DNA of 64,000 nucleotides from Flavobacteriaceae bacterium MAR_2010_188 (lineage in GTDB: Bacteria > Bacteroidota > Bacteroidia > Flavobacteriales > Flavobacteriaceae): positions 496,001-560,000 of the forward strand of contig LT629302.1 in assembly GCA_900104375.1 (NCBI GenBank), in the 5' to 3' direction. The position numbers and the translations under genes were made by a program. Shown in pieces: positions 30,025-48,990 of this stretch (positions are counted from its first letter, which is position 1; each line of letters begins with the position of its first letter). Below the pieces are notes generated by a model that made no database searches, was not told the DNA's origin, and saw only the letters and a list, made by a program, of their open reading frames with translations.

Positions 30025-32811
30025 ATGAAATTTCAAAAGACAATCAAACTTATATTCTGTCTGATTGTAGTACAAACCGCTTCAGCACAGTTTACACCTC
30101 CTTTTAAGAATTATAATTTATCCAACCTTAACGCCGGTAATCAAAATTGGGACGTATCCCGTAGTGATGAGGGTGAACTTTATTTTGCCAATCATAAGGG
30201 GCTCTTAGAATATGATGGATTAAGATGGAAACTCTTACAGATTCCCAATAAAACCACCTTACGTTCGGTTTTAGCGCATAAGAATCGTGTATACATTGGA
30301 TCTTATGAAGAATTTGGTTTCTGGGAAAGAGATTCCAAAGGCATACTAAAGTACTTTTCTCTGAGCGAAGGAATGTCGGATAAAATATCTTCGGATGAGG
30401 AAATCTGGCAAATCATAGCTTTCAGTGATAAAATTGTATTCAGGTCATTTAGGAATCTCTATATCTATGATTCAAGCGGAAAAATTGTAAAGAAAACACC
30501 GAATTCCGTAGTTATTTCCTGTAGTGTGGTCAATAACAGATTACTTGTTGCCACTTTAACCCATGGCATATACGAGTTAACCGATTCAGACTATATTGAA
30601 TACTACAATTCCCCTGAACTCAATGGCATCAAGATTATCTCGATTATCGAGAAGAACGATCAACTTTATCTTACTACAGCACTAAATGGCTCCTTCTATC
30701 TTTCAGAAAAGCTTACACCCGATAAGTCCGAAATTAATGAGCTCATTAAACAGCATCAGCTAAACGATTTTTCCACTCTAGAAAATGGAAACATGATTTT
30801 TGGGACCATTAAAAATGGAGTTTATGTAACTGACCCGAAAGGTAAAGTCCTCTATAATATCAATAAAGAAAACGGGCTGGCAAACAATACCATATTGAGT
30901 CAATTTTTAGATGTTGATAATCGATTATGGCTGGGTCTAGATAACGGTATTTCTTCCATAGATCTAGAGAATAAGGTTAGCTTCTACAATGATGTATCAG
31001 GTCGGCTCGGTGCAGTTTATGATGTAATCAAATATCAAAACACCTTTTATATTGGCAGTAATACCGGTTTGTTTTATTTGGACACAAACGGAGAATTGCA
31101 ATTTATAGAAGGCTCTCAAGGGCAAGTATGGAGTTTAGATGAATTAGATGATCAGCTCCTTTGCGGTCATAATAATGGGACATTTTTAGTAAAGAACAAA
31201 TCCTTAGAACCTATAAGTAATTATACTGGTGGTTGGACCATCAAAAAAGTTGTTGACTCTCCAGATAGATATGTCCAAGGAACCTACGCTGGGCTAATCG
31301 GTTTTAAGAACGACGGAGATAATTGGCAGTCCAAATATTTAGGTAAAACTACGATGCCTTTAAAACACATAGCGTTAGAAGACGATCAAACAATCTGGGC
31401 TGCACATACCTATAAAGGAATTTATAAAATTAAAATTGAAGATTCTTGGGATAGTATTAAATCGATATCAGATTATGGGAACACGGGTATAGGGAGCGAT
31501 TATAATGTTAGGGTTTATAAACTTAAGAATGCCATATGTTTTAAAACCAATGAAGGTTGGAAAAAATATGAACCTCTCTTAGATAGTATAGTTTCGCATG
31601 ATTATCTTAATAAAACATTGGGGAAAGACTCTTACATTATTTCAGAGGAGTTTGACGAAAATTTTGTGCTTAAGACATCTGACGATGCCATCTCCTTTAG
31701 AAACTTTAATAAACAGGAATACTTTATAATTGGCAGTGATTTCTTCGATGACCGACTTATAGTAGGATACGAGAATGTTTCTTCAATCGGGGATTCCTTA
31801 TACGCTCTAAATCTTAACGACGGTTTTGCGCTGATAGATAAAAATCTAAAGATTGAAAACAGCCTAAGTGTACCCATACTTCAGAATATTCAGATTAATC
31901 GAGAATATTTGAAGCTTGGTTCTCAAGAGGAAATAAACTTACACTTTAATGATAATTTAAGGTTAGTACTTAACTCTCCAAAATCCTTTAATTACTTTCT
32001 TGAATATCTCTTGTCAGAAAGTGACGATTCTAAATGGACAAAGGTTGAAGGAAATGAGATTTATCTAACAAATCTATCTGCTGGACAGAATAACCTTAAG
32101 GTCCGTAGCAACAACCAACTTGGTAAGTATTCTGAAGCCAAATCAATACTTCTTACAGTTTCCCCGCCATGGTACCAAGATACTGCGGGCTACCTTCTTT
32201 ATTTGTTAGTGGCAATAATGTTAGTCCTGCTCTTCTATTTTCTGCATAAACGCAAAATTGAAAAGGAGCAAGGGTTACTTAAAACTGCTCTAGAAGAAGA
32301 GCAGAAAGAAATATTGAATCAGAAAACCTTAGAAAATGAAAAAAGGATTGTAAACTTGAAGAATGAAGCTTTAAAGAATGAAGTTCAACTAAAGAGTAAG
32401 CAATTGGCTAATACTGCAATGGCATTGGTAAGAAAAAATGAAACCCTCTTGGAAATTAAACAGGATTTGGTAGAAAATAAGAAAGGATTCGATAATTTCT
32501 ATTCTTATAAAAAATTGATCAAAAGGGTAGATAATTCAATATCACATAAAGATGAATGGGAAATCTTTGAGAATAATTTTAATCAAGTTCACGAAGAGTT
32601 TTTTGAAGAGATTAAATTGAAACATCCTAACTTAAACCATAAGGATCTTAAAGTTTGTGCCTACATCAAAATGAACTTATCGTCCAAAGAAATAGCACCG
32701 CTTATGAATATTTCGGTAAGAGGTGTTGAAACTTACAGATATCGCTTAAAAAAGAAGTTAGATTTAGAAAATGACATTTCTATGTCCGATTATTTGATAA
32801 ATTTCGAATAA
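30025..32811 (+). CDS. SusR-like regulator: periplasmic propeller sensor, membrane helix, LuxR-type HTH
   Basis: A 928-residue transmembrane regulator. A signal peptide (IKLIFCLIVVQTASAQ) leads to about 600 residues of two-component-regulator propeller repeats (NQNWDVSRSDEGELYFANHKG and RLWLGLDNGISSID are blades). A Y_Y_Y-type domain follows (about 640-712), then one membrane helix (about 718-740), a coiled coil (about 742-835) and a C-terminal LuxR/GerE helix-turn-helix (about 868-928, SSKEIAPLMNISVRGVETYRYRLKKKL in outline). There is no histidine kinase domain, so it resembles SusR rather than a hybrid two-component system. It probably senses oligosaccharide in the periplasm and activates the susC operon downstream. 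Confidence 0.88.
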   Translation: MKFQKTIKLIFCLIVVQTASAQFTPPFKNYNLSNLNAGNQNWDVSRSDEGELYFANHKGLLEYDGLRWKLLQIPNKTTLRSVLAHKNRVYIGSYEEFGFWERDSKGILKYFSLSEGMSDKISSDEEIWQIIAFSDKIVFRSFRNLYIYDSSGKIVKKTPNSVVISCSVVNNRLLVATLTHGIYELTDSDYIEYYNSPELNGIKIISIIEKNDQLYLTTALNGSFYLSEKLTPDKSEINELIKQHQLNDFSTLENGNMIFGTIKNGVYVTDPKGKVLYNINKENGLANNTILSQFLDVDNRLWLGLDNGISSIDLENKVSFYNDVSGRLGAVYDVIKYQNTFYIGSNTGLFYLDTNGELQFIEGSQGQVWSLDELDDQLLCGHNNGTFLVKNKSLEPISNYTGGWTIKKVVDSPDRYVQGTYAGLIGFKNDGDNWQSKYLGKTTMPLKHIALEDDQTIWAAHTYKGIYKIKIEDSWDSIKSISDYGNTGIGSDYNVRVYKLKNAICFKTNEGWKKYEPLLDSIVSHDYLNKTLGKDSYIISEEFDENFVLKTSDDAISFRNFNKQEYFIIGSDFFDDRLIVGYENVSSIGDSLYALNLNDGFALIDKNLKIENSLSVPILQNIQINREYLKLGSQEEINLHFNDNLRLVLNSPKSFNYFLEYLLSESDDSKWTKVEGNEIYLTNLSAGQNNLKVRSNNQLGKYSEAKSILLTVSPPWYQDTAGYLLYLLVAIMLVLLFYFLHKRKIEKEQGLLKTALEEEQKEILNQKTLENEKRIVNLKNEALKNEVQLKSKQLANTAMALVRKNETLLEIKQDLVENKKGFDNFYSYKKLIKRVDNSISHKDEWEIFENNFNQVHEEFFEEIKLKHPNLNHKDLKVCAYIKMNLSSKEIAPLMNISVRGVETYRYRLKKKLDLENDISMSDYLINFE

Positions 32812-32846
32812 ATACTCTACGATTTTACATATTCCTCGTTTTAAAC

Positions 32847-32955
32847 TACGTCAATACTACGTCAGACTGTTAATTTTTGTCTTAATAAATCATCATTATT
32901 GTAGTTTTATCATACGTCAATCAGCTTTTCTTTCTGCCCCTATTCCTGTGACGTA
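32847..32955. promoter_or_regulatory. four TACGTCA sites upstream of susC, candidate regulator operator
   Basis: TACGTCA occurs at 32847-32853 and 32858-32864 (11 bp apart, same helix face; the extended ACTACGTCA is shared), at 32913-32919, and inverted at 32949-32955. All lie in the 227-bp gap between the regulator gene and susC. Two lie before and two after a promoter-like pair of boxes. The arrangement suits a dimeric HTH activator or repressor. Confidence 0.5.
32876..32909 (+). promoter_or_regulatory. possible susC promoter
   Basis: TTTG at 32876-32879 and TAGTTTTA at 32902-32909 resemble the Bacteroidota -33/-7 boxes (TTTG and TAnnTTTG), with 7 of 8 bases in the -7 box but a spacer of 22 bp, slightly long. 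The tandem TACGTCA sites lie just upstream, in an activator position. Confidence 0.35.
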
Positions 32956-33038
32956 ATCAAAAAGTAAATGAATTCTTAATCTTTCGTTAAGATCATTTTA
33001 TCTTGTATTCAACTAACAATTAATAAAGTCAAATTAAT

Positions 33039-36000
33039 ATGAGAGCAGTAATTAATACATTAATCCTTTTTCTGTTTACATTATTCTCGTTCGCTCAGAC
33101 CCGCACGGTTACCGGTACTGTTACAGGGGCGGAAGATAATATTCCAATACCGGGAGTAAATGTTATTGTACAAGGAACCAGCCGGGGAGTCACCACCGAT
33201 TTTGATGGTAATTACTCCATTGATGTGGCTTCAGGAGAGGTATTGGAGTTCAGCTATTTGGGATACATAACTCAGGCTGTTACCATCGCTTCACAATCGA
33301 ATGTTGATATATCATTTGCTGCGGATGTCCAAAGTCTCGATGAAGTTGTAGTTATTGGTTATGGAACCGCAACCAAAAGAGATTTAACGGGATCTATCGT
33401 GAAGATAGATGGAGATGTAGTGGCAGATAAGCCCGCCACTAACCCAGTTGCTTCCCTACAAGGTCGGGTCTCTGGACTTTCTGTGGTAAACTCTGGAAGA
33501 ATAGGCCAAGAGCCAGATATTAGAATTCGTGGTACCAGTAGTAGGTATAATACCAAACCTTTATTTGTGGTAGATGGTATTTTTGCCGATGATATTAGTT
33601 ATGTAAACCCAAATGATATCGAATCCATTGAAGTATTGAAGGATGCATCCTCATTGGCCATCTTTGGTGTAAGGGGTGCAAATGGTGTTATTATAGTAAC
33701 TACTAAAAAAGCAAAAGCAGGAAGGCTTACCGTAAATTTCAACACGAGTTTAGGCTACAAAACAATGACTGGTGCTCCAGACTTGGCGAACGCCTCATTA
33801 TTCACTGAACTTTATAATGAGAGATTATCTAATGAAGGTCTAGCGCCATTTGTATATTACGACCTTTATACCGCTGATACTGATTGGGTCGACCAGATTG
33901 CCAATCAAGCTGCTTTTCTTCAAACTGATAACTTAAGCATCCAAAGCGCTGGAGAAAAAAATAAAATCTCTTTCGGATTAGGCTACAGAACTGAAGAGGG
34001 TTTGGTTAAAAATGAAAACCTTACTCGAGTTACGATGAACGTGAATGATGAGTTTAAAGTTAACGATGCTATCAAGATTGGAATCAACGCTAATGGTTAT
34101 AAGGACAAGCTTCCAAACCAAGGGGGTTTTGGATCTGCACTCAACGCTACTCCAATCGTTTCACCGAGACACAGAGATTCACGACCAGAGTATGACGGTT
34201 TATATAATCAGTTGCCAATTGAGATTGGTGGTGCACAAATAGCCAATCCTCTGTTGGTAGCTAATGTTTTAAAAAACAAGAATATTTCTGAGCGTTATCG
34301 TTTTGTTGGAAGTGTATTCGGTGAAATAAAATTTTTCAATGATTTTACCTTCCGGGCAAATTACTATGGCGACTATGATACCAACAGAGGAAGATCTTAT
34401 ACCCCTATTGTAAATATTTATACAGCGGAATCCGATGAGATTGTTAGTTTCAATGGTAACCAAATCACCAGGGTTAATCAGAGCACCGGAACTACAATTA
34501 ATTTTCAACAAGAATATTTACTTTCTTATGATAAAAACTTTGGAAACCATGATGTGCAGGCGACCTTGGGTTACACTACTACAGAAACTAAGTTTGAAGG
34601 TTTATCTGGTAGTGTTCAACATGATCCGAGTGTCGGTATAATTCCTAATGACCCAAGATATTGGTATGTGGGTGTTTTTCCTTATGGAGATCCTTCTTCT
34701 AAAACATCATCCTCATCTCAATTTAGTAGAGCCACTACTTCTGTTCTGGGAAGGGTCTTATATAATTATAATGGAACCTACCTTTTAAACGCCTCATATC
34801 GTTTGGATGCAACTTCACAACTTGCTCCTAACAATAGAGAACAGGATTTTTGGTCCTTAGGTGCGGGATGGGTTATTACTAACGAGAGTTTCTTAGAGAA
34901 TTCTGAAACACTCAATTTATTGAAAATCAAAGGATCAATAGGACAGTTAGGAAATCAGTTTGTACCGGTAAACTATCCATTTTATCCAGGTGTTGACCAA
35001 GGTGCAACCGCATTATTCGGAGAAAACGTGATTCCTGGATATCTTCAACGATTTGAGGAAAATCCTAATCTACAATGGGAAACGGTAAGACTATGGGAAG
35101 TGGGGGTAGAAAGCGGATGGTTTAACAATCGTTTATCTCTTAACGCCAATTATTATAATCGTATGACGGAGAACTTGCTTGTATTTGTCAATATAGGGAC
35201 AGCCCAGTTCTTTGATAATTCTGGTGAAATAGAAAACAAGGGATTTGAATTTGAAGGAAGTTGGTCTGATGGAAGTGATTCTGGAGATTTTAATTATTCC
35301 ATAGGTGGTAACCTAACCACTATAACTAATGAGGTGCTTTCAACGCGTGAAAATGCTGCGATTTTTGCCGGTGGAGAGAACAGGTCGAGAACGATTTCGG
35401 GAGAACCTATAGGTCATTTCTACGGTTACGTGGTAGATGGTATTTATCAGACTAATGCTGATATTGCAGAAAATGTCCCTAGTACCTTAGGAAATTATGG
35501 ACTAGGTGACTTTAAATATCGCGACGTTAATAATGACGGGCAGATTACGCCAGATGATAGAACCGTTATCGGTAACCCAACTCCAGATTTTACTTACGGT
35601 TTTTATACAAACGTAGATTATAAGAACTTCTATTTAAATATGGATTTTCAAGGTGTTTATGGCAACGAGATCTACCGTGATTGGGGAAATGGAAACTCTT
35701 TTGCACAATTTAACTATCGTGCCGACCGAGCGGACAGATGGACGCAGGCTGGAAGCTCTAACTGGGAGCCAAGATTATTTGACGCCTCACAATACAATAG
35801 GTTTCCATCTACTTATATGATCGAGGACGGAAGTTATTTCAGGATTAGAAATGTGCAGCTAGGTTATAAATTTAATCCTGAGAGTTTTCAGCAAATAGGT
35901 ATACAACAAATTAAGTTATTTGTAAACGTTCAAAATTTATATACCTATAAGAGCAATTCCGGATTTACTCCTGAGGCTGGGGGATCTCCTATATCATTTG

Positions 36001-36065
36001 GAGTTGACGATGGCGGTTATCCCGTACCCATAATTTCTACCGTAGGTTTGGTTATAACATTTTAA
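33039..36065 (+). CDS. susC: SusC/RagA family TonB-linked outer-membrane transporter
   Basis: A 1008-residue protein. After the signal peptide (MRAVINTLILFLFTLFSFAQ) comes a carboxypeptidase-regulatory-like domain (about 22-105, PGVNVIVQGTSRGVTTDFDGNY). The TonB box region DEVVVIGYG, the plug domain (about 120-230) and the 22-strand barrel follow, ending in the usual aromatic terminus (VGLVITF). It imports glycan oligosaccharides across the outer membrane together with the SusD protein encoded 8 bp downstream. The gene symbol is a family label; the substrate is inferred from the neighbouring glucanases. Confidence 0.95.
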   Translation: MRAVINTLILFLFTLFSFAQTRTVTGTVTGAEDNIPIPGVNVIVQGTSRGVTTDFDGNYSIDVASGEVLEFSYLGYITQAVTIASQSNVDISFAADVQSLDEVVVIGYGTATKRDLTGSIVKIDGDVVADKPATNPVASLQGRVSGLSVVNSGRIGQEPDIRIRGTSSRYNTKPLFVVDGIFADDISYVNPNDIESIEVLKDASSLAIFGVRGANGVIIVTTKKAKAGRLTVNFNTSLGYKTMTGAPDLANASLFTELYNERLSNEGLAPFVYYDLYTADTDWVDQIANQAAFLQTDNLSIQSAGEKNKISFGLGYRTEEGLVKNENLTRVTMNVNDEFKVNDAIKIGINANGYKDKLPNQGGFGSALNATPIVSPRHRDSRPEYDGLYNQLPIEIGGAQIANPLLVANVLKNKNISERYRFVGSVFGEIKFFNDFTFRANYYGDYDTNRGRSYTPIVNIYTAESDEIVSFNGNQITRVNQSTGTTINFQQEYLLSYDKNFGNHDVQATLGYTTTETKFEGLSGSVQHDPSVGIIPNDPRYWYVGVFPYGDPSSKTSSSSQFSRATTSVLGRVLYNYNGTYLLNASYRLDATSQLAPNNREQDFWSLGAGWVITNESFLENSETLNLLKIKGSIGQLGNQFVPVNYPFYPGVDQGATALFGENVIPGYLQRFEENPNLQWETVRLWEVGVESGWFNNRLSLNANYYNRMTENLLVFVNIGTAQFFDNSGEIENKGFEFEGSWSDGSDSGDFNYSIGGNLTTITNEVLSTRENAAIFAGGENRSRTISGEPIGHFYGYVVDGIYQTNADIAENVPSTLGNYGLGDFKYRDVNNDGQITPDDRTVIGNPTPDFTYGFYTNVDYKNFYLNMDFQGVYGNEIYRDWGNGNSFAQFNYRADRADRWTQAGSSNWEPRLFDASQYNRFPSTYMIEDGSYFRIRNVQLGYKFNPESFQQIGIQQIKLFVNVQNLYTYKSNSGFTPEAGGSPISFGVDDGGYPVPIISTVGLVITF

Positions 36066-36073: not shown

Positions 36074-37543
36074 ATGAAAAATATGAAGATTTTAAAAAGA
36101 ATATCCATTTTATCCGTGATGGGTCTAGCCCTGCTAATATCATGTGATGATAGTTTTTTAGATCGGCTTCCAGAAGGGGAGGTAGCAAATACAGATGAAT
36201 TAGGTGTTGGTGGACAGGAGACCGCGGTTTTTGGACTTTATTCACAACTGCGACGATCTGCTGTTGGGCAATGGCAACGATATTGGTTTGGGAGTATAAG
36301 ATCTGACGATGCTGCAAAAGGTAGTACACCCGGTGACGGTGCTGCGGATGGCACGGCTTTTAATGACTTCGATTACGTCGCAACTAACCTATTAAGTACT
36401 TCTTGGTGGAATGCCCATTACGAAATTATTTTTGCAAGTAACGAAATAATCAATATTATCGAAGAGACTGGAACAACTGACGAAGGAAGTCTAATAAACG
36501 CCGCAGAAGCAAAAGTAATGAGAGGTTGGATGTATTTCGAGTTAAGAAGAGACTATGGTGAAGTCCCAATAATTACGGCTACTATCGATAATCCAGAAGA
36601 TGCAATTGCTCCTAAAGCAACTGTCGCCGATATAGACGCATTAATTGAATCAGACCTTACTTTTGCTGCACAATATCTTCCTCTTACTTGGCCTAACTTC
36701 CCAGGAAGAGCTACTTCTGGTTTTGCAAATTCGATGTTGGCCAAGTTGTATTTATATCAAGAAAATTGGCAAAAATCCTATGATAAATCAATGGAGGTAA
36801 TTAATTCTGGTGTGTATATGCTTGATCCAGATTTAGTGAATCTATTTGAAATTGGAGGAGATAATGGAGTCGAATCGATATTCGAGATTCAACAATTAGT
36901 TACGGATAATGAGAACTTTGCTGACAATTATTTTCTTTCTCAGGGTGTTAGAGGTGCAGGTGTATGGGATTTAGGATGGGGTTTTAATGTTCCTACCCAA
37001 CAGCTAGTAGATGCATTTGAAGCTGGTGATAAAAGAAAAAATAATACAATACTCTATTCGGGTCAAGATGATAATGGTTTTGGCAGTGGCACATTGCCAG
37101 CGGTACCACCATTACCCCAACCTTATTGGAATAAAAAAGCCTATACAAAGCAGGCAGTCAGAAATGAGTTTAACATGAATTTCAATCGATGGGAGAATAT
37201 TAAAATAGTCCGATACGCCGATATTATACTTATGGCGGCAGAAGCAGCCAACGAATTAGGTATGACTTCCGAAGCTGTAGATTTAGTTAATCAAGTAAGA
37301 AGTCGAGCAGGTTTAGGCTTGATATCAGTTACTGATCAAGCCTCGGTAAGAGCTGCAATCAAGCAGGAAAGACGGGTAGAACTGGCAATGGAAGAATACA
37401 GATTCTATGATTTAGTGAGATGGGGAGACGCTGTATCTGTTTTAGGTAGTCTTGGCTATGAAGCTAAGAACGCACTATATCCTATTCCGCAAGAGGCGAT
37501 TGACCAAGCAGGAGGAGTATTGGTACAGAATCCAAATTATTAA
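36074..37543 (+). CDS. susD: RagB/SusD family nutrient-uptake outer-membrane lipoprotein
   Basis: A 489-residue lipoprotein (lipobox region MGLALLISC, then DDSFLDRLPEGE). It has the TPR-rich helical SusD fold: KVMRGWMYFELRRDYGEVPI around residues 140-160 is the standard family motif, and the C-terminal ERRVELAMEEYRFYDLVRWG around 435-455 is the second. It caps the SusC transporter on the cell surface and binds the glycan. Two neighbouring ATG codons (36074 and 36083) are both possible starts. Confidence 0.95.
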   Translation: MKNMKILKRISILSVMGLALLISCDDSFLDRLPEGEVANTDELGVGGQETAVFGLYSQLRRSAVGQWQRYWFGSIRSDDAAKGSTPGDGAADGTAFNDFDYVATNLLSTSWWNAHYEIIFASNEIINIIEETGTTDEGSLINAAEAKVMRGWMYFELRRDYGEVPIITATIDNPEDAIAPKATVADIDALIESDLTFAAQYLPLTWPNFPGRATSGFANSMLAKLYLYQENWQKSYDKSMEVINSGVYMLDPDLVNLFEIGGDNGVESIFEIQQLVTDNENFADNYFLSQGVRGAGVWDLGWGFNVPTQQLVDAFEAGDKRKNNTILYSGQDDNGFGSGTLPAVPPLPQPYWNKKAYTKQAVRNEFNMNFNRWENIKIVRYADIILMAAEAANELGMTSEAVDLVNQVRSRAGLGLISVTDQASVRAAIKQERRVELAMEEYRFYDLVRWGDAVSVLGSLGYEAKNALYPIPQEAIDQAGGVLVQNPNY

Positions 37544-39438: not shown

Positions 39439-40827
39439 ATGACAATTAGACTCTACATAACTACAGCAATCCTTGCTTGTTTACTATCCTATGGATGTAA
39501 ATCAGGTCAAGAGGACGAAATTCAACCTAAAGTAGAAAAGGTTGATAACAACGAAACCTTTGCACTGACAGAAAATGACAAAGTTCTGTTGGATACTTTA
39601 CAATTTCAAACCTTTAATTATTTCTGGGAAGGTGCCGAGCCAAACTCCGGAATGGCAAGGGAAAGGCTTCATATGGACGACGTCTATCCTACTTCTCCAA
39701 AGAATACAGTTACTATTGGCGGAAGCGGGTTTGGTCTTATGGCAATCCTTGTAGGTGTGGAGCATGGTTTTATAACACGGGAACAAGCGGTTGATAGATA
39801 TATTCAAATTGTAGATTTCATTAAAAAAGCAGACCGCTATCACGGAGCATGGCCACATTGGTTAAACGGCGAAACTGGTAAAATTGTGCCATTCAGCAAA
39901 AAGGATACCGGCGGCGATTTGGTAGAGTCCGCTTTTTTGGTACAAGGGCTTTTGACGGTGTACGAATATTTTAAGGATGGAAACAACAAGGAGAAAAATT
40001 TAGCTGCCGATATTGATAAGCTTTGGAAGGAAGTAGAGTGGGATTGGTATACCAAGAACGGAGAAAATGTTCTATACTGGCATTGGTCCCCAACCGATAA
40101 TTGGGATATGAACTTCGCAGTCGGTGGATATAACGAATGTCTTATTATGTATGTTCTTGCTGCTGCTTCTCCAACACACCCAATCTCTAAGGATGTTTAT
40201 GAAAAAGGATGGGCGAGAAGTGGCGAAATCGTCTCTAAAGATTCTCTTTACGGGATGCCGTTAGTGCTGGACTATTTTGAGCACGACACTGCCGCGATTG
40301 GTCCGTTATTCTGGGCGCATTATTCTTATTTAGGACTTAATCCTAATGGCCTTACCGACCAATATGCAGATTATTCTGAGTTGACCAAAAATCATGCGAA
40401 AATCCATTATTCATATGCTGTCGATAATCCTGAAAACTTTAAGGGCTACGGCGATTCGTTGTGGGGGTTAACTTCGAGTTATTCTATTAATGGATATGCC
40501 GGACATAGACCTGGGGCCGATTTGGGCGTAATTTCTCCCACTGCGGCACTCTCTTCGTTTCCGTATACTCCAGAAGAGAGTATGAAAATGATTACCTATC
40601 TCTATCAAGAACAGGATAGCCTAATTGGGAAATATGGTCCATACGATGCGTTTAGCCTTCAAGATAATTGGTCTACGCCGAGATATCTTGCAATTGATCA
40701 AGGACCAATTCCAGTTATGATAGAAAATTATAGAACTGGTCTTTTTTGGAAGCTGTTCATGAAAAATGAAGACGTTAAGAAAGGCTTGAATAAACTGGGT
40801 TTTACAACTACATTTAATTCAAATTAA
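39439..40827 (+). CDS. GH144-like endo-beta-1,2-glucanase lipoprotein (glucoamylase-family protein), copy 1
   Basis: A 462-residue lipoprotein (ILACLLSYGC). The body is an (alpha/alpha)6-type enzyme formerly annotated as glucoamylase family (COG5368), a group that includes the GH144 endo-beta-1,2-glucanases. Typical motifs are FNYFWEGAEPNSGMARERL (about 57-75), GGSGFGLMAILVGVEHGF, HGAWPHWLNGETGK, GGDLVESAFLVQGLL and LGVISPTAALSSFPYTPEE. It shares this pattern with the gene that starts 1 bp after it. It likely cuts beta-1,2-glucan at the surface or in the periplasm. Specificity needs assay; the family contains other beta-glucanases. Confidence 0.82.
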   Translation: MTIRLYITTAILACLLSYGCKSGQEDEIQPKVEKVDNNETFALTENDKVLLDTLQFQTFNYFWEGAEPNSGMARERLHMDDVYPTSPKNTVTIGGSGFGLMAILVGVEHGFITREQAVDRYIQIVDFIKKADRYHGAWPHWLNGETGKIVPFSKKDTGGDLVESAFLVQGLLTVYEYFKDGNNKEKNLAADIDKLWKEVEWDWYTKNGENVLYWHWSPTDNWDMNFAVGGYNECLIMYVLAAASPTHPISKDVYEKGWARSGEIVSKDSLYGMPLVLDYFEHDTAAIGPLFWAHYSYLGLNPNGLTDQYADYSELTKNHAKIHYSYAVDNPENFKGYGDSLWGLTSSYSINGYAGHRPGADLGVISPTAALSSFPYTPEESMKMITYLYQEQDSLIGKYGPYDAFSLQDNWSTPRYLAIDQGPIPVMIENYRTGLFWKLFMKNEDVKKGLNKLGFTTTFNSN

Positions 40828-40828: not shown

Positions 40829-42223
40829 ATGAAAAAAACATCTTTATATATACTCTCTTTTTTATTCCTCATCGCAACTTCTTGCTCTAACGACAGTAGT
40901 CCCACAAATGATAATCCTACCGATCCAGATGGCGAAAACCCAACTGAGGACGACACTCCGCCACCAGTAACTACAATCAGTGATGTGGAATTATTGGATT
41001 TAACCCAAAAGGAAACCTTCAAATATTTTTGGGATTACGCCAATGCTAACTCCGGCGCAGCTAGAGAAAGATATCATCCTAATGACCCTAATCTCAACCA
41101 GAACGTTGTAACGACGGGAGGCAGTGGTTTTGGACTTATGGCGATCCTCGTAGGGATAGAAAGGGGATTTGTTAGTAGACAACAGGCGGTAACCCGGCTT
41201 CAGAAAATTTTGAACTTTTTTGAGAATGCTGATAGATTTCATGGTGCTTGGCCTCATTGGATTGATGGTGGCAATGGATCTGTTTTACCATTTAGTACCG
41301 AAGATAATGGAGGCGATTTGGTAGAAACTGCCTTTTTAGCTCAAGGTCTAATCTGTATAAAAGAATATTTTAAAGATGGGTCAGATGAAGAAAAAGTCCT
41401 TTCCGCTCAAGCTGATAGCTTATGGAAAGGTGTAGAATGGAATTGGTACACTCAAAATAAAGATGGGTTATATTGGCATTGGAGCCCTAATTATGGATTC
41501 AGCATAAATTTAGAGCTCGTAGGCTATAATGAAACTCTAATCTCGTATGTGTTAGCTGCTTCTTCTCCCAATTTTCCAATTACCAAAAGTGTTTATATCG
41601 GAGGATGGGCGAGCAATGGTACTATTGTTTCTGGCAACTCTAAATATGGTTATCCTCTAATTTTAAGGCATGCAGGATCCCCAGAATACGGCGGACCACT
41701 ATTTTTTTCCCACTATTCCTTTCTGGGATTGAATCCTACTAATCTTAGGGATGATTATGGACACTTTGGAAATGTGGTAAAAAATCATACCAACATCAAT
41801 TATGAATATTGCGTAGATAATCCAAATAATTTTAGGGATTACGGACCGGATTGCTGGGGACTTACCGCTAGTTATTCTAGAAATGCTGACGGTTCTCTTG
41901 GATATATGGCGCATGAACCAGCAAACGACATTGGCGTGATTTCTCCGACTGCAGCAATTAGTTCGATACCCTACACTCCAGAAAAATCATTGGCTGCGAT
42001 GCATTATTTCTATGAGCATAAAGATAAATTACTGGGGCCAGCTGGTTTTTACGATGCCTTTTCTCCAAGATTCAGTTTTTGGGTGGCAGAAGCATATTTG
42101 GCAATAGACCAAGGTCCACAGATTATTATGATTGAAAATTATCGCTCTGGATTGCTTTGGAATCTATTTATGCAGAATGAAGATGTTAAGAAAGGTTTAG
42201 ACTTACTTGATTTTAATTATTAA
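40829..42223 (+). CDS. GH144-like endo-beta-1,2-glucanase lipoprotein, copy 2
   Basis: A 464-residue paralogue of the preceding gene with lipobox LIATSC and a Pro/Asp/Thr-rich linker (PTNDNPTDPDGENPTEDDTP) before the catalytic domain. Motifs FKYFWDYANANSGAARERY, GGSGFGLMAILVGIERGF, HGAWPHWIDGGNG, GGDLVETAFLAQGL and IGVISPTAAISSIPYTPEK align with copy 1. The linker suggests surface display, whereas copy 1 lacks it, so the two may act in different places or on different chain lengths. It lies 1 bp after copy 1 and 2 bp before the esterase gene. Confidence 0.82.
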   Translation: MKKTSLYILSFLFLIATSCSNDSSPTNDNPTDPDGENPTEDDTPPPVTTISDVELLDLTQKETFKYFWDYANANSGAARERYHPNDPNLNQNVVTTGGSGFGLMAILVGIERGFVSRQQAVTRLQKILNFFENADRFHGAWPHWIDGGNGSVLPFSTEDNGGDLVETAFLAQGLICIKEYFKDGSDEEKVLSAQADSLWKGVEWNWYTQNKDGLYWHWSPNYGFSINLELVGYNETLISYVLAASSPNFPITKSVYIGGWASNGTIVSGNSKYGYPLILRHAGSPEYGGPLFFSHYSFLGLNPTNLRDDYGHFGNVVKNHTNINYEYCVDNPNNFRDYGPDCWGLTASYSRNADGSLGYMAHEPANDIGVISPTAAISSIPYTPEKSLAAMHYFYEHKDKLLGPAGFYDAFSPRFSFWVAEAYLAIDQGPQIIMIENYRSGLLWNLFMQNEDVKKGLDLLDFNY

Positions 42224-42225: not shown

Positions 42226-43017
42226 ATGAAAATAATTAAGATTTTATTATTCGCATTTCTATTTTCCGCAATTAACCTCAGCTTTGGTCAAAACGATAAT
42301 TTATATCAAAAAGAGATTTTTATTAAGAACGGAGATTCTTTAAGATATAGAATTATGTACCCGGAAGACTTTTCGAAAGATAAGGTTTACCCCATGGTAC
42401 TCTTTTTACACGGTGCTGGAGAAAGAGGAAATGATAATGAATCGCAGCTAATACATGGCAGTGAATTGTTCGCTTCCCTTGAGGCTAGAGATTCTTTTCC
42501 AGCAATCGTGATTTTTCCTCAATGCCCGAATGAAGGTTATTGGGCTAACGTTAAGGTGGACAGGACCACACATCCTCTCACTATCGAATTTCCAGAGGAC
42601 AAACCTGCCACCAAGTCCATGTCTTTAGTAATGTCTTTAGTGAAGGAATATCAAAAGGAAAATTACATAAACAGTGAAAGAATATATTTAGGTGGACTAT
42701 CGATGGGCGGTATGGGAACATTCGAAATTTTGGAAAGAATGCCAGACACCTTCGCAAGCGCATTTGCCATTTGCGGTGGGGATAATGTCGATGCTATTTC
42801 TGCATATTCGGATAAAACACCATTATGGATTTTCCATGGTGCAAAAGACGATGTTGTGGACCCACAACTTTCAGTTGATATCGTTGGAGAGCTCCTAAAA
42901 TTAGGCGCGAATCCAAATTTCAACCTTTATGCAAACGATAATCATAATAGCTGGGATTCTGCCTTTGCAGAGCCAGGTTTACTAAAGTGGTTATTTTCAA
43001 AATCAAAATCGGAATAA
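42226..43017 (+). CDS. exported alpha/beta-hydrolase esterase (PHB depolymerase/phospholipase-like)
   Basis: A 263-residue protein with signal peptide (ILLFAFLFSAINLSFGQ). The fold is shown by MVLFLHGAGERGND (oxyanion strand), the nucleophile elbow GLSMGGMG with serine near residue 157, the acid in HGAKDDVVDP near 207 and the histidine in NDNHNSWDSAF near 242. Similar genes in polysaccharide loci encode carbohydrate esterases. It is translationally close to both neighbours, so it probably removes an ester substituent from the same glucan. The exact ester is unknown. Confidence 0.82.
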   Translation: MKIIKILLFAFLFSAINLSFGQNDNLYQKEIFIKNGDSLRYRIMYPEDFSKDKVYPMVLFLHGAGERGNDNESQLIHGSELFASLEARDSFPAIVIFPQCPNEGYWANVKVDRTTHPLTIEFPEDKPATKSMSLVMSLVKEYQKENYINSERIYLGGLSMGGMGTFEILERMPDTFASAFAICGGDNVDAISAYSDKTPLWIFHGAKDDVVDPQLSVDIVGELLKLGANPNFNLYANDNHNSWDSAFAEPGLLKWLFSKSKSE

Positions 43018-43029: not shown

Positions 43030-45339
43030 ATGGTTAAACGTTTAGCTTTTTCAGTCTTTACCATTTCTTCCTTTCTATGTTTTTCTTTTATGTCTACCGA
43101 CCCAAAGGAAAAAACAACCGATAATCCTGATTATTCCAGGCAAGTAGATTCAATATTGAATCTTATGACCTTGAATGAAAAACTCGGTCAGCTTAATCTG
43201 CCATCTTCGGGAGATATTACTACCGGACAGGCAAAAAGTTCAGATATCGCAAAGAAGATTGAAGAAGGCAAGGTCGGTGGTCTTTTCAACATAAAATCAG
43301 TCGAAAAAATTAGGGACGTCCAGAAAGTAGCTATGGAAAAAAGTAGGTTAAAGATTCCTTTGCTTTTTGGTATGGATGTTATCCACGGATACGAAACGAC
43401 TTTCCCGATTCCTTTGGGGCTTTCTAGTTCTTGGGATATGGATTTAATCAAAAAAACTGCGCAAATGTCAGCCAAAGAAGCTAGTGCCGACGGCATAAAC
43501 TGGACTTTCTCTCCGATGGTAGATATTTCTAGAGATGCTCGTTGGGGACGTATTTCCGAAGGTTCTGGTGAAGACCCATTTTTAGGCTCTAAAATAGCTG
43601 AAGCCATGGTAACAGGCTATCAAGGGGACGATTTAACCTCCAATAACACGATCCTTTCGTGTGTCAAGCATTTTGCTTTATACGGAGCTTCAGAAGCTGG
43701 TAGAGATTACAATACAGTAGATATGAGCCGTATTAAAATGTACAATGACTATCTGCCGCCTTATAAGGCTGCTGTAGATGCCGGTGTAGCCTCAGTTATG
43801 GCTTCTTTCAATGAAATCGATGGAGTACCTGCGACTGGTAATAAGTGGCTACTCACTGACTTGCTGAGAGATCAGTGGAAGTTCGATGGATTCGTAGTGA
43901 GCGATTATACGGGAATCAATGAAATGATTGCCCATGGAGTTGGCGATATTCAAACCGTTTCGGCAATGGCATTAAATGCCGGAGTAGATATGGATATGGT
44001 AGGAGAAGGTCTTCTTACTACTCTTAGTAAATCCTTAGATGAAGGAAAAATTACCATGGCACAGATTGATGAAGCAGTGAAGCGAATTTTAACTTCAAAG
44101 TATGAACTTGGGCTTTTTGATGACCCTTATAAATACTGCGACAGCGACCGAGCGAAATCTGAAATTTTCACAGAAAGCAATAGAGAATTTGCGACAAAAG
44201 TTTCAACTGAATCTATGGTATTGTTGAAGAATGAAAATCAAACTCTTCCACTTAAAAAAACTGGTAAGATCGCATTAATAGGTCCGTTGGGAGATACACC
44301 GGTGAACATGGCAGGTACTTGGAGTGTTGCAACAGTTCAAGACAGGTCTATTTCTGTTTTGGCGGGACTTAAGAAATATCTAGGCAATTCTGCCCAAGTT
44401 ACCTACGCCAAAGGAAGTAATGTTGATTATGATTTAGAATTTGAAAAGAGAGCGACACTGTTTGGAAAAGAAATCCCCAGATCAAATAAAAATGATGATC
44501 AGTTAAGGAATGAAGCTATCGAATTAGCTAGAAATTCTGATATTATTATTGCAGCCATGGGAGAAACCGCCGAAATGAGTGGAGAGAGCAGTAGCCGAAC
44601 TAATTTAAACATACCCGAAGCACAAAAGGAACTATTAAACGAGCTCCTTAAAACCGGAAAGCCAGTGGTTTTAGTTCTTTTCGCAGGCCGTCCTTTAGTT
44701 TTGGTAGATGAAAATGAAACGGTGCCAGCAATTTTAAACGTTTGGTTTCCCGGAAGTGAAGCTGGTACTGCGATAGCCCAAGTTCTTTTTGGTGATGTTA
44801 ATCCATCCGGAAAGCTTACCGCCACCTTTCCTCGTAATGTAGGACAGATTCCAATTTATTATAATCATAAAAATACTGGTCGCCCATTAGGAAACAGTGA
44901 GGGCAATTTTGAAAAATTTAGATCTAATTATTTAGACGTCAGAAATGAGCCATTATTTCCATTTGGTTACGGACTCAGTTATACCAAATTTACGTATAGC
45001 AATCTTATTTTAAGTTCTAAAGAAATGAGCATGGACGGAACAATTGAGGTTAATGTAGATGTGAGCAATACCGGGAATTTTGATGGAAAAGAAGTCGTTC
45101 AGCTTTATATTCGTGATGTCGTGGGCTCTGTAACCAGGCCTGTAAGGGAACTTAAGGGATTTCAAAAGGTTGAAATCAAAAAAGGCGAAACTAAAAAAAT
45201 CACTTTTAAATTGAGTGTTGACGATCTTAAATTTTACAACTATAATCTCGATTTTATTGCTGAACCTGGAGAGTTTCAGGTTTTTGTTGGCACTGACTCT
45301 AATGCAAAATCTATGGTTGAGTTCAATTTGAAGGAATAA
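43030..45339 (+). CDS. GH3 beta-glucosidase (BglX-like)
   Basis: A 769-residue exported enzyme with the three-domain plan of periplasmic BglX: GH3 N-terminal barrel (about 55-370), GH3 C-terminal domain (about 405-640) and fibronectin type III-like domain (about 695-765). The nucleophile is D292 in GFVVSDYTGI. KHFALYGASEAGRDYNTVDMS carries the substrate-binding Lys-His. It releases glucose from the non-reducing end of beta-glucan oligosaccharides. In known beta-1,2-glucan loci a GH3 completes the breakdown of sophoro-oligosaccharides made by GH144. Confidence 0.92.
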   Translation: MVKRLAFSVFTISSFLCFSFMSTDPKEKTTDNPDYSRQVDSILNLMTLNEKLGQLNLPSSGDITTGQAKSSDIAKKIEEGKVGGLFNIKSVEKIRDVQKVAMEKSRLKIPLLFGMDVIHGYETTFPIPLGLSSSWDMDLIKKTAQMSAKEASADGINWTFSPMVDISRDARWGRISEGSGEDPFLGSKIAEAMVTGYQGDDLTSNNTILSCVKHFALYGASEAGRDYNTVDMSRIKMYNDYLPPYKAAVDAGVASVMASFNEIDGVPATGNKWLLTDLLRDQWKFDGFVVSDYTGINEMIAHGVGDIQTVSAMALNAGVDMDMVGEGLLTTLSKSLDEGKITMAQIDEAVKRILTSKYELGLFDDPYKYCDSDRAKSEIFTESNREFATKVSTESMVLLKNENQTLPLKKTGKIALIGPLGDTPVNMAGTWSVATVQDRSISVLAGLKKYLGNSAQVTYAKGSNVDYDLEFEKRATLFGKEIPRSNKNDDQLRNEAIELARNSDIIIAAMGETAEMSGESSSRTNLNIPEAQKELLNELLKTGKPVVLVLFAGRPLVLVDENETVPAILNVWFPGSEAGTAIAQVLFGDVNPSGKLTATFPRNVGQIPIYYNHKNTGRPLGNSEGNFEKFRSNYLDVRNEPLFPFGYGLSYTKFTYSNLILSSKEMSMDGTIEVNVDVSNTGNFDGKEVVQLYIRDVVGSVTRPVRELKGFQKVEIKKGETKKITFKLSVDDLKFYNYNLDFIAEPGEFQVFVGTDSNAKSMVEFNLKE

Positions 45340-45480: not shown

Positions 45481-46362
45481 ATGAAACTCAATCTTCATAT
45501 ATTTCTTTCCTTCTTAACTTTTGGCCTCAATGCCCAAAATATAGAAACCGTTACCTATGCTATAAAAGGTAATGACACTTTGGGCCTAGATGTTTATTTG
45601 CCTAAGAATATTAAAGCAAACGAAAAACTCCCCACACTTTTATGGATCCACGGCGGAGGATTTTCTGGTGGCTCTAGAGGAGGTGGTGATTTAGTGAAAA
45701 TGGCAGAACAATTTAACTCTCAAGGTTACGCAGTAGTATCGATATCGTATAGACTATTGAGAAAAGGCACCAAAACCCAATTCAGCTGTGAATGCAGCAG
45801 AGAAGAAAAGATTGAAACTTTTAAACAAGGCGTGATCGATTATATGGATGCTGCAAAATATCTAATGCAGAATGCTGAAAAATATCATATTGATAGAGAA
45901 AGGATCATCGCTGGAGGTAGCAGTGCTGGTGCTGAAGTTGTTTTGGACGCCGTTTATATGCGAGAATATTTTATAGATAATCTTGATGACTATTCTGGGG
46001 TAAAATTTGCGGGTCTATTTTCATTAGCCGGTGCTATGGTGAATGCAGATTACATAACTGCTGAAAACGCAGTGCCAACTGTAATGTTCCACGGGACTGA
46101 AGACAATCTGGTTCCGTTTGCTACAGCGCCACATCATTATTGCAAACCGAGTGATAAGGGTTATTTGTTTTTAGACGGATCTTCCACCATCGCCAAGAGA
46201 TTAAAGGATTTAAAAATGTCCTACTATTTTAATGTAGTTGAAGGGGGTATGCATGAAATTTCTGGGATACCGATTAATAATCTTGATCAAATCCTGGCCT
46301 TCTTTGATCGAACAGTCAAGGAAGATAATATAATTCAGACTAAAGTCATTAAAACTAAATAG
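45481..46362 (+). CDS. exported alpha/beta hydrolase (esterase/lipase, carboxylesterase-like)
   Basis: A 293-residue protein with a probable signal sequence (LHIFLSFLTFGLNAQN). Motifs are HGGGFSGGSRGGG (HGGG oxyanion motif, about residues 56-68), the elbow GGSSAGAEVV (serine near 144), and a late His in EGGMHEISG. It has the hormone-sensitive-lipase/carboxylesterase pattern. It starts 140 bp after the GH3 gene and 1 bp before the sulfatase gene, so it may be a second de-esterifying enzyme of the locus. The stretch FSCECSREEK contains two cysteines likely disulfide-bonded. Confidence 0.8.
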   Translation: MKLNLHIFLSFLTFGLNAQNIETVTYAIKGNDTLGLDVYLPKNIKANEKLPTLLWIHGGGFSGGSRGGGDLVKMAEQFNSQGYAVVSISYRLLRKGTKTQFSCECSREEKIETFKQGVIDYMDAAKYLMQNAEKYHIDRERIIAGGSSAGAEVVLDAVYMREYFIDNLDDYSGVKFAGLFSLAGAMVNADYITAENAVPTVMFHGTEDNLVPFATAPHHYCKPSDKGYLFLDGSSTIAKRLKDLKMSYYFNVVEGGMHEISGIPINNLDQILAFFDRTVKEDNIIQTKVIKTK

Positions 46363-46363
46363 A

Positions 46364-48016
46364 ATGAAATTTCTGCTCTGTTTAATTGTTGTGTTATCTG
46401 TTTTTTCCTGTAAGGAAGAAACTTCCAATAATAACGAGCCTGAAAAATCATCACCTCCTAATATTCTTTTCATAATGGCTGATGACCACGCCTTTCAAGC
46501 AATCAGTGCTTATGGTCATCCTATTAGTAAGCTAGCACCAACCCCAAATATTGATAGGATTGCAATTAATGGTGCAATCTTCAATAAAAACTTTTGTACA
46601 AATTCTATTTGTGGGCCAAGCAGAGCAGTAATACTCACTGGTAAGCACAGCCATATCAATGGTTTTAGAATGAACGGGGATAAGTTCAACGGAGATCAGC
46701 AGACTTTCCCAAAAATTTTACAACAAGGGGGTTACAATACTGCGATGATTGGGAAATGGCATTTATATGGTGAACCTCAAGGGTTTGATTATTGGAGCAT
46801 CCTTAATGATCAGGGTAATTATTATAATCCAGATTTTATAACCTTAAATGAATCGGCTCAAAAGATTGATTCAACGAGAATTGAAGGATATTCTACCGAT
46901 ATTATTACCGAAAAGGGCATCGATTTTTTAAAAAGCGTCAAGGATACGGGCAAACCATTTCTGTTGATGCTTCAACATAAAGCTCCTCACAGAAACTGGA
47001 TGCCAGCACTTAGACATTTAAATAAATATGATTCAATAGAATTTCCCTTACCCGACTCATATTTTACAGATCATACGGGTTCACAATCTTCAAAAGATCA
47101 GCTGCAGACTATTTATAAAGATATGTACGAAGGTCATGACTTAAAAATGTCCGTTAAGAAAGGTAGTACAGAATTGGCGCATAATCCATGGAAGACCGAC
47201 TTTGAAAGAATGACTAAGGAACAAAGAGCAATTTGGGACAGCGCATATTTGCCCAAAAACGATGCTTTTTATGATTTAAACTTGCATGGTGAGGAGTTGG
47301 CAAAATGGAAAGGTCAACGTTATCTGCATGAATATCTTTCAACCATCGCAGCAGTAGACGAGGGTGTTGGGAAAGTTCTTGATTATCTCGATGAAAATGG
47401 ATTAACCGATAATACAATCGTAGTGTATACCTCTGACCAAGGATTCTTTTTGGGCGAAAAAGGTTGGTTCGATAAACGGTATATGTACGAAGAGTCTCTT
47501 AGAATGCCTTTGTTGATAATGTATCCGCCTAAAATTAAAAAAGGGAAGGTCATCGAAGCGCTAACCCAAAATTTAGATTTTGCAGAAACTTTTTTAGATT
47601 ACGCAGGTCTGCCAATTCCAAAAGATATGCAAGGAAAATCTTTGCGTCCCTTACTAGAAGGAAAAGTTAATGATCAGGATTTTAGAAATGCCATATACTA
47701 CCATTACTACGATTACCCAGCATTTCATATGGTTAAGAAAATGTACGGCGTCCGTACTGATCGGTATAAGTTGATTCATGTTTATGATGATATTGATCAA
47801 TGGGAACTCTATGATTTGAAGAGCGATCCCCAAGAATTGACTAATCTTTATGATTCTGCAAGTTATGGAGACATTCAGGCGAAATTAAAGGTGACTTTAG
47901 ATTCACTTCAAAAAGAATATAAGGTGACGGATAAAGAATTCGAACAAGCCGATACAGAAAAGGTTAAGAACGCCTATAAGCAATTTGAAAAATTAAGAGG
48001 GAAGCCGATAGAATGA
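46364..48016 (+). CDS. S1-family sulfatase, lipoprotein
   Basis: A 550-residue protein with lipobox (VVLSVFSC) and the type I sulfatase fold. MADDHAFQAISAYGHP carries the metal-binding aspartates. C83-G-P-S-R87 (NSICGPSRAVILTG) is the formylglycine motif in its cysteine form, which needs the anaerobic or aerobic FGE maturation system encoded elsewhere. GKWHLYG and VYTSDQGFFLGEKGWFDK are further family motifs. It would remove a sulfate ester in the periplasm or at the surface. Sulfatases are not usual in pure glucan loci, so the substrate may be decorated. Confidence 0.88.
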   Translation: MKFLLCLIVVLSVFSCKEETSNNNEPEKSSPPNILFIMADDHAFQAISAYGHPISKLAPTPNIDRIAINGAIFNKNFCTNSICGPSRAVILTGKHSHINGFRMNGDKFNGDQQTFPKILQQGGYNTAMIGKWHLYGEPQGFDYWSILNDQGNYYNPDFITLNESAQKIDSTRIEGYSTDIITEKGIDFLKSVKDTGKPFLLMLQHKAPHRNWMPALRHLNKYDSIEFPLPDSYFTDHTGSQSSKDQLQTIYKDMYEGHDLKMSVKKGSTELAHNPWKTDFERMTKEQRAIWDSAYLPKNDAFYDLNLHGEELAKWKGQRYLHEYLSTIAAVDEGVGKVLDYLDENGLTDNTIVVYTSDQGFFLGEKGWFDKRYMYEESLRMPLLIMYPPKIKKGKVIEALTQNLDFAETFLDYAGLPIPKDMQGKSLRPLLEGKVNDQDFRNAIYYHYYDYPAFHMVKKMYGVRTDRYKLIHVYDDIDQWELYDLKSDPQELTNLYDSASYGDIQAKLKVTLDSLQKEYKVTDKEFEQADTEKVKNAYKQFEKLRGKPIE

Positions 48017-48162
48017 GGAAAATGAATTTAGGGTTGATAAATTCAACGTTTTTCAATCCTAACTTCTAAAGAAATTTCTAAACAAAGGTGGTGAGAGCTT
48101 TTTCTATAATTTTTAATTTGAAGTTTAAAATCTTATATTTTTAACAAAAGAAATTCAACAAG

Positions 48163-48990
48163 ATGAAAAATATATCAATCTTATTGATGTTGATAACCTT
48201 TGCTACGACTGCACAAGAATTATCGGTCATGACCTATAACATTAAACTAGACTATCCGATTGAAGGCGAAAACAGTTGGACCAACAGGAAGCCTATGTTT
48301 ATTGGTCAACTCAATTTTTACGAACCTGATATTTTTGGAGTTCAAGAGGCAATGCCAAATCAGATGAAAGAAATGGATAGCCTTTTACCTAATTATGGTT
48401 TTGTTGGAGTGGGGAGGGATGATGGACAGGACCTCGGGGAATATTCGGCTATTTTCTACAAAAAGAACAAATTTAAAGTATTGGTTTCTTCCACTTTTTG
48501 GTTATCAGAAACACCAGATAAGGTTTCTATGGGCTGGGATGCCGCCTGCAATCGGGTCTGTACTTATGTCAAGTTTGAAGATTTGCAAAACCATTCAACC
48601 TTTTACGTATTTAATACCCATTTTGATCATATTGGGGTAGAAGCAAGAAAGAACAGTTCGAAACTGATAATTAAAAAAATAAACGAAATCAATGTTGAAA
48701 ACCTGCCAGTAATCCTTACCGGCGATTTTAATTTGGAAGAAGATTCAGAAAGTATTAAATATATAAAATCCCAATTGAAAGATTCTAAGGAGATTTCCAA
48801 AGCAGAACCTTTTGGACCAATTGGGACTTTTAATAATTTTGAATTCGACAAACCCGTAAGCCGGCGCCTCGATTATATTTTTGTAAATTCTAGAGTGACC
48901 GTGCAAAAATATGCAGTGCTCAGCGATTCCAAGGATTTACACTATCCTTCAGATCATCTGCCAGTCTTGGTAATGTTAAAGTTGGACTAG
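48163..48990 (+). CDS. endonuclease/exonuclease/phosphatase family hydrolase, exported
   Basis: A 275-residue protein with a signal peptide-like start (ISILLMLITFATTAQE). The EEP metal-site motifs are in order: MTYNIKLD (about 21-28), FGVQEAM (Glu near 63), FNTHFDHIG (about 149-157), LTGDFNLEEDSES (about 185-197), RLDYIFV and SDHLPV near the end. Exported members found in polysaccharide loci are probably phosphodiesterases or phosphatases acting on glycan or lipid substituents rather than nucleases. The gene is 146 bp after the sulfatase and closes the operon. Confidence 0.82.
   Translation: MKNISILLMLITFATTAQELSVMTYNIKLDYPIEGENSWTNRKPMFIGQLNFYEPDIFGVQEAMPNQMKEMDSLLPNYGFVGVGRDDGQDLGEYSAIFYKKNKFKVLVSSTFWLSETPDKVSMGWDAACNRVCTYVKFEDLQNHSTFYVFNTHFDHIGVEARKNSSKLIIKKINEINVENLPVILTGDFNLEEDSESIKYIKSQLKDSKEISKAEPFGPIGTFNNFEFDKPVSRRLDYIFVNSRVTVQKYAVLSDSKDLHYPSDHLPVLVMLKLD

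Follow-up and report, generated by a model that had tools for sequence, protein, structure and literature searches.

We analysed a window of 64,000 nucleotides (the whole stretch of DNA under study) from Flavobacteriaceae bacterium MAR_2010_188, whose genome is a single contig of 3.82 Mb, and focused on a polysaccharide utilization locus (PUL) at positions 30025-48990. This PUL probably serves the use of a beta-1,2-glucan with ester groups on its glucose units, most likely sulfate and possibly phosphate. The parts of this proposal differ in confidence. The backbone is very likely to be beta-1,2-glucan, because the residues that characterize GH144 enzymes and the subsite residues of a GH3 enzyme are kept; the use of beta-1,2-glucan was also the core of the original prediction, made from the sequence alone, and is well supported in this respect. 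Sulfate decoration is fairly probable, and phosphate decoration is a possibility that falls somewhat short of probable. Since the lineages of an S1 sulfatase and an EEP-fold phosphoesterase in the locus are tied to GH144, the substrate is probably ester-decorated and not a plain glucan.

The locus comprises 11 genes, all on the + strand, which were identified from the list of open reading frames (ORFs) and by family profile searches:

30025..32811, +, regulator with C-terminal LuxR/GerE-type helix-turn-helix (PF00196 at residues 872-918, 25 bits, cut-off 23.5)
33039..36065, +, SusC-type TonB-dependent importer, SusC clade I (TIGR04056, 797 bits; SusC tree)
36074..37543, +, SusD-type surface lipoprotein (PF07980, 119 bits; PF14322)
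37564..39324, +, LamG (Laminin_G_3) lipoprotein (PF13385, 122.6 bits, two stretches; lipobox; start taken as ATG 37564 in preference to TTG 37552)
39439..40827, +, GH144a, beta-1,2-glucanase-type (PF10091; groups with CpSGL)
40829..42223, +, GH144b, second GH144 lineage (PF10091; lipobox, linker)
42226..43017, +, alpha/beta hydrolase A, esterase-type (PF00326/PF02230; top solved relative is esterase 3doh)
43030..45339, +, GH3 beta-glucosidase, BglX type (NF011678, 928 bits, cut-off 666)
45481..46362, +, alpha/beta hydrolase B, BD-FAE type esterase (PF20434, 86.8 bits)
46364..48016, +, S1 formylglycine sulfatase, S1_11-like (PF00884, 181.5 bits; Cys83 in CGPSR)
48163..48990, +, EEP-fold phosphoesterase, mannosyl-6-phosphatase BT3783 group (PF03372, 56.1 bits)

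The adjacent susC and susD genes, the catalytic genes and the regulator together correspond to the definition of a PUL in Bacteroidota. Family matches bear out the susCD pair, LamG protein, GH3 and accessory esterases that had been named previously, the esterases being the two alpha/beta hydrolases. The earlier picture thus stands for the GH144/GH3/susCD core, but it did not name the regulator, the sulfatase or the EEP enzyme, and the last two point to a decorated substrate. The regulator, which also precedes susC in related loci, is probably the sensor/activator of the locus, and the LamG lipoprotein is probably a surface glycan-binding protein. The spacing is 227 bases between the regulator and susC, and 1-146 bases between all genes from susC onward. 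This fits a single operon from susC onward, so the previously claimed operon agrees with the spacing, from which it is deduced. A scan for promoters and terminators did not clearly exceed shuffled sequences (75 versus 64.1, standard deviation 7.7; 14 versus 12.9, standard deviation 3.6).

We infer the following route, including its substrate and decorations, the cell locations, the endo or exo roles and the order of steps. SusD and the LamG protein would catch the glucan, GH144b, which has a surface-type acidic tail, would cleave it outside the cell, and SusC would import the fragments. In the periplasm, the two alpha/beta hydrolases would remove acyl groups, the S1 sulfatase would remove sulfate (from position 6, by analogy with S1_11) and the EEP enzyme would remove phosphate; GH144a would shorten the chains and GH3 would free glucose.

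Two sets of sequences were used for comparison. Related loci were collected with one protein query (the best 80 of 109 candidates) and 10 kb flanks, so the S1 and EEP genes of longer loci may fall outside. These 80 named loci are mostly from Flavobacteriaceae, with some from other Bacteroidota, and the window's gene order is found again among them: SusC, SusD, at least two GH144 and a GH3-type gene occur together in 60 of the 80, which is more than chance. An S1-type match is present in 40 loci (33 copies score at least 700 bits) and an EEP in 15. The second set consists of 149 genomes, one draw of the family that includes the window's own genome. It overlaps the named loci (e.g., G097:C3/L006 and G011:C20/L027), so the two sets are not independent. 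Published papers are cited for those parts of their text that were accessible.

GH144 and GH3 enzymes

The two tandem GH144-like enzymes that had been noted in the sequence score 256 (GH144a) and 259 bits (GH144b) with PF10091 (cut-off 27), and they are its sole matches in the genome. The top solved relatives of both include CpSGL, the endo-beta-1,2-glucanase of Chitinophaga pinensis (5gzh, 5gzk), with matches that are nearly whole-length. Identity to CpSGL is 59% for GH144a and 55% for GH144b, and the two window proteins are 53% identical to each other. We aligned 152 sequences, namely CpSGL, both window copies and 149 sequences from the named loci, none shorter than 380 residues. CpSGL residues D135, D139, E142, E211, F268 and Y330 are invariant in all 152, and D400 is found in 148. 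The position of E211 is that of the acid and that of E142 the likely base, while an E/F/Y trio defines the clan (PMC12102758). Both window enzymes keep the catalytic residues (E211, E142, D135, D139) and the clan residues (E211, F268, Y330).

In the tree of these 152 sequences, in which CpSGL is the sole characterised enzyme, GH144a belongs to a 66-row set with CpSGL (SH-aLRT 99) and GH144b to another set of 63 rows (SH-aLRT 97). The pair is therefore not a recent duplication. Labels assigned by best hit to one or the other copy fit this tree imperfectly (7 changes each). The tandem arrangement is present in 26 of the 41 GH144-bearing genomes of the family sample.

Both enzymes had been proposed to be lipoproteins, one with a flexible linker. 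This is upheld for GH144b, which has a lipobox and a Pro/Asp/Thr-rich linker, and whose lipobox Cys is followed by an acidic tail (CSNDSS). GH144a is only probably a lipoprotein, as its LSYGC fails the simple lipobox pattern. Among the copies examined, the pattern matched 21 of 47 for GH144a and 17 of 39 for GH144b, with one doubtful match per set and possible errors from trimmed starts. Where it matched, the tails after the Cys tend to be acidic in GH144b and basic or neutral in GH144a, and it is to these matches that the contrast in means (1.6 versus 0.5 acidic residues) applies. Acidic tails after the lipobox Cys mark surface export in flavobacteria. It may be guessed, with little confidence, that GH144b acts outside the cell and GH144a inside.

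The top solved relatives of the window's GH3 are JMB19063, 5tf0, 9urf and 5xxl, and we take entries 5xxl-5xxo to be BT_3567. The window GH3 scores 1071-1073 bits against the BT_3567 entries and 591-594 bits against those of Lin1840 (4zo6 and others). Recognition of sophorose has been tied to Arg572, Tyr583 and Trp271 of Lin1840, which are Arg587, Phe598 and Tyr262 in JMB19063 (PMC4757417). According to alignment mapping, this Arg, Phe and Tyr of the JMB19063 +1 subsite are all kept in the window enzyme (NTGRP, EKFRS and SDYTG). We predict a beta-1,2-glucosidase role from these residues, which it has in common with the BT_3567 and Lin1840 enzymes. Because the Lin1840 GH3 does not distinguish sophorose from laminaribiose (PMC4757417), the subsite residues support beta-1,2 specificity but do not prove it.

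Sulfatase and phosphoesterase lineages

The genome has a single PF00884 match, the S1 sulfatase (46364-48016). This enzyme has the Cys-type formylglycine motif C-x-P-S-R, as CGPSR at Cys83, and this motif is found in 34 of 34 high-scoring S1 copies, the window's included. Its solved relatives are 9s03 (925 bits), a PDB entry for which no publication was found, 5g2v (550 bits), which we take to be BT4656, and 7p24 (530 bits). All three have Ser at the position of Cys83, which may be natural or engineered. Elsewhere in the genome is an FGE-like protein with GGSYLCNASYC, both Cys residues of which presumably belong to the FGE active site, and no anSME was found above the cut-off in the genome.

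The window's S1 is similar in sequence to S1_11 sulfatases such as BT4656, and the position that it would desulfate is predicted by analogy with them. BT4656 and other S1_11 enzymes are 6-O-desulfating; members act on 6S-GlcNAc or, in the case of aquatic ones, recognise L-galactose (PMC10154612). About half of the subfamily, aquatic members especially, are without the N-acetyl region, and S1_11 enzymes bind the sulfated sugar at its O3 and O4 through a triad of His and Asp/Arg (PMC10154612). The window's protein has GWFDKR (in 31 of the 34 high-scoring copies) and H-x-x-K-x-x-YG (in 23 of 34), whose mapping to the triad is a guess.

We counted how often S1 genes lie within 30 kb of GH144, which we call linked, in the 149 family genomes. 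The input was 69 of 70 PF10091 rows (that of G069, below the cut-off, was dropped) and 87 S1 rows from a search at E <=1e-100, which scored at most 9 candidates per genome and undercounts lower-scoring S1s. At 789 bits or more, S1 is linked in 23 of 25 places, the window's own genome included. At 352-608 bits, linkage is seen in 2 of 62 places among the matches listed. Of the two unlinked high-scoring copies, one comes from a draft of 350 contigs in which GH144 lies on a different contig, and the other is an additional copy in a genome that also has a linked one. A linked S1 is present in 24 of the 41 GH144 genomes, one of which has only a lower-scoring copy. The high-scoring S1 lineage is tied to GH144.

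The EEP protein has sequence relatives 3g6s, 3mpr and 4c1r (187 bits for 4c1r). Fold comparison gives the same three (Z 35.0-35.8), then 3l1w (31.6) and others at 26.1 or below; the match to 4c1r, which is BT3783, has Z 35.0 over 252 residues at 2.1 A and 40% identity. The window's EEP thus shares sequence and fold group with BT3783, and its putative substrate here is glucan-linked phosphate. Residues N26, E62, H153, D188, N190 and D237 are invariant in 15 of 15 copies, and D264 and H265 are conserved in at least 90%, one copy being cut off there; we take these positions to be the enzyme's motif residues.

For EEP linkage, rows below 200 bits were dropped, which left 67 places (own included), and 60 regions were opened with wide flanks. 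At 360 bits or more, EEP is GH144-linked in 10 of 11 places, the window's own among them, and the remaining one is near a contig end; at 200-326 bits it is linked in 5 of 56. The high-scoring EEP lineage, like that of S1, is tied to GH144. A quick tree of 77 EEPs requires 6 changes for the copies linked to GH144, at least 3 of which are forced by starred branches, with the Bacteroides copies standing apart. The recruitment of EEPs to beta-glucan loci seems to have happened more than once, although the counts are compatible with gain or loss. In addition, 6 of 80 related loci have a metallophosphoesterase that separates GH144b from hydrolase A or follows GH144. Its occurrence and that of the EEP hint at phosphate on the substrate. 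EEP genes in GH16 loci were seen in L131, L134-L137, L139, L142 and L156, and these EEPs form a separate group together with two others. Among the papers listed on EEP enzymes in PULs, no mention of GH144 was found.

Other explanations and published loci

Several observations weigh against a decorated beta-1,2-glucan as the substrate. Laminaribiose is taken about as well as sophorose by Lin1840 and BT_3567, and a second GH3 in the window, at 53706, has the same +1-subsite Arg, so this residue discriminates weakly. A GH144 homolog is found in a PUL with a beta-1,2-galactosidase in B. xylanisolvens (PMC11739564), so GH144 by itself does not fix the polymer. Since an exo-type GH144 exists (PMC12369401), GH144a and GH144b may each be endo- or exo-acting. 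As to the decorations, 17 of the 41 GH144 genomes have no linked S1, so sulfate is not universal. EEP relatives occur in GH16 loci in 8 of the 60 opened regions, so the EEP is not specific to beta-1,2-glucan; this weakens the EEP as proof of phosphate, and the phosphate-removal step is suggested by family resemblance. Finally, related loci contain additional genes, namely GH43-like in 28, GH2 in 18 and GH97 in 13 of the 80, and other sugars may therefore be present in the natural polymer.

Other substrates were also considered. The food could be plain or acylated periplasmic or cyclic beta-1,2-glucan, with S1 and EEP having side activities or serving occasional phosphoglycerol-like substituents; we regard this explanation as unlikely. 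The GH144/GH3 core is what it would require, and the substituents named for periplasmic and cyclic glucans in the accessible literature are phosphoglycerol, phosphoethanolamine and succinyl, with sulfate not met among them. Moreover, GH144 is accompanied by EEP in the Bacteroides loci L056, L058 and L059, whose stretches of 13.4, 21.2 and 7.8 kb gave no S1 match. The genome also has no MdoG/OpgG or GH94 match, which speaks against recycling of the cell's own glucan (other glucan synthases were not searched). That the food is periplasmic or cyclic glucan from other bacteria, as the original prediction suggested, is plausible. However, a side activity accords poorly with an S1 that keeps its Cys-type motif, is the sole PF00884 protein, has an FGE-like partner and adjoins GH144 in 23 of 25 high-scoring places. 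It is improbable that the target is a heteropolysaccharide in which other sugars accompany beta-1,2-linked stretches. Such a polymer would explain the GH2, GH97 and GH43-like genes of related loci and the galactosidase beside the B. xylanisolvens homolog, and the GH43-like family, which has no Pfam catalytic domain, does match a GH43-type fold (E 2.5e-21, TM 0.44/0.55, model pLDDT 79). Yet the window's locus has none of these three families, its glycosidases being two GH144 and one GH3, and that GH3 is in the clade of sophorose-cleaving enzymes.

We consider it very improbable that this is a laminarin locus using GH144 off its usual linkage. LamG domains are present and the GH3 clade also takes laminaribiose, but the locus proteins include no GH16 or other laminarinase family, the GH144 residues fit beta-1,2-glucanases, and laminarin-type genes form a separate cluster. 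That cluster, at 51543-56773 directly downstream of the PUL, consists of a sodium/solute symporter, a GH3 and a GH16. In the GH43-like family, represented by L017:11496-13241 and 27 other loci, Pfam sees only an F5/8 C domain.

Returning to the decorated beta-1,2-glucan, the locus type with two GH144, GH3, susCD and a sulfatase is already in print, and so is the suggestion that this glucan has a sulfated relative in the sea. GH144 PULs are frequent, marine ones add a sulfatase, and a ubiquitous sulfated marine polysaccharide has been inferred from them (PMC6499787, Lapebie et al. 2019). The window's PUL likewise combines GH144 with a sulfatase; unlike the accessible text of that account, it shows an EEP, two GH144 lineages, a tie of the S1 lineage to GH144 and what we read as importer exchange (see below). 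In Maribacter dokdonensis 62-1, a cluster has one GH3, two GH144 (with about 50% identity to that of C. pinensis), susCD and sulfatase genes, and every Maribacter and Zobellia covered by the study carries this cluster type (PMC8072126). The window shares this gene content, but has an EEP and esterases that are not part of the accessible description. GH144 PULs of deep-sea Bacteroidetes have also been read as beta-1,2-glucan use (PMC10405439). The literature searched gave no chemical description of a beta-1,2-glucan esterified with sulfate as well as phosphate. If the substrate is indeed such a sulfated and phosphorylated glucan, a common and chemically uncharacterised polysaccharide becomes testable with defined enzymes, and the dedicated sulfatase and EEP could serve as tools for finding its decorations.

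Capture-gene variation and other genes in the window

The genes for capture and import appear to have a different history from those of the enzymes. In 60 loci, SusC, SusD and GH144a are all full-length, and these loci were compared. Four of them (L006, L027, L049 and L068) have a SusC that is 65-77% identical to the window's; the value is 46-47% in L058 (Bacteroides) and L063 (Parapedobacter), and 30-36% in the other 54. Identity to the window's GH144a ranges over 42-76% and is unrelated to that of SusC (r 0.01), whereas SusC and SusD vary together (r 0.93). The seven Maribacter/Zobellia loci with full-length SusC belong to SusC clade IV, unlike the window, which is in clade I.

When the four SusC clades are mapped onto the GH144a tree, 16 changes are required, close to what shuffling of the labels gives (a mean of 17.4, with values this low in 24 of 200 shuffles). 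The 7 rows of clade I, the window's own, account for 7 changes, and starred branches force every one of them. The approximately unbiased (AU) test rejects the five flavobacterial clade I rows as one GH144a clade (p 4e-7), on a quick tree with some long rows and with the group named after seeing the SusC tree. Mantel correlations with GH144a, computed over L003-L052, L061, L068 and the window with 11 to 52 loci depending on the gene, are 0.33 for SusC, 0.23 for SusD and 0.44 for LamG, versus 0.57-0.87 for the regulator and other enzymes. The values for SusC and SusD are still above all 999 permutations, so exchange is not total.

Individual pairs of loci illustrate this pattern. Between L027 (Pseudozobellia thermophila) and L029 (Maribacter thermophilus), the regulator and enzymes are 90-99% identical, but SusC, SusD and LamG are 36%, 24% and 42% identical, and DNA similarity ends about 330 bases into susC and returns at the GH144a start. 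Similarity of the window to L003, L005 and L010 ends at about 33221-33274, just inside susC, and returns in GH144a at 39589-39607. It ends earlier, at 32776, for L004, and continues through susC and susD into lamG for L006. We read these comparisons as repeated exchange of a SusC-SusD-LamG capture block, in the window's lineage as well, in which the regulator and enzymes would stay. A fixed breakpoint after the SusC N-terminal domain fits L027 and L029, but was not upheld over many pairs. Likeness in this domain is 0.51 between clades I and IV, 0.45 with the SusCs of other loci and 0.48 with laminarin-type ones. In a control of 8 loci with EEP and GH16 or GH3, SusC varies too (0.22-0.75), in a set too small to decide the matter.

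A comparable situation is known from the fructan PUL of B. thetaiotaomicron, where a divergent susC/susD pair was by itself enough to confer inulin use (PMC5967196, Joglekar et al. 2018). There, as here, the importer pair differs within a shared PUL, and in that case it changes diet. The exchange proposed here differs in that it includes LamG, spans genera and is known from sequences alone. No mention of importer exchange or of an EEP tie was found for GH144 loci in the accessible literature, supplementary files and most subscription papers being outside the search. A broader idea, which we consider doubtful and offer tentatively, is that flavobacteria of this type share a beta-1,2-glucan esterified with sulfate and phosphate and specialise on its forms (linear versus cyclic, long versus short, or with different decorations) by exchanging capture cassettes, with the regulator and enzymes kept and EEPs joining repeatedly. 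If exchange is indeed repeated, enzyme content alone cannot predict which form of the glycan a flavobacterium takes up.

Other parts of the window were named from ORF readings or family matches. At 626-12524, genes that resemble those for integration and mobilisation precede an RND-type efflux set, and the region may be a mobile element. At 12992-14770, the ORF of a metal-transporting P-type ATPase has an in-frame stop, beyond which the C-terminal part continues in the same frame. A lipoprotein-like protein at 24559-25674, with a weak match to the GH2 TIM barrel (30 bits), stands alone among non-glycan ORFs. On the - strand at 28305-29457, a HipA_2-like kinase adjoins a DUF3037 protein.

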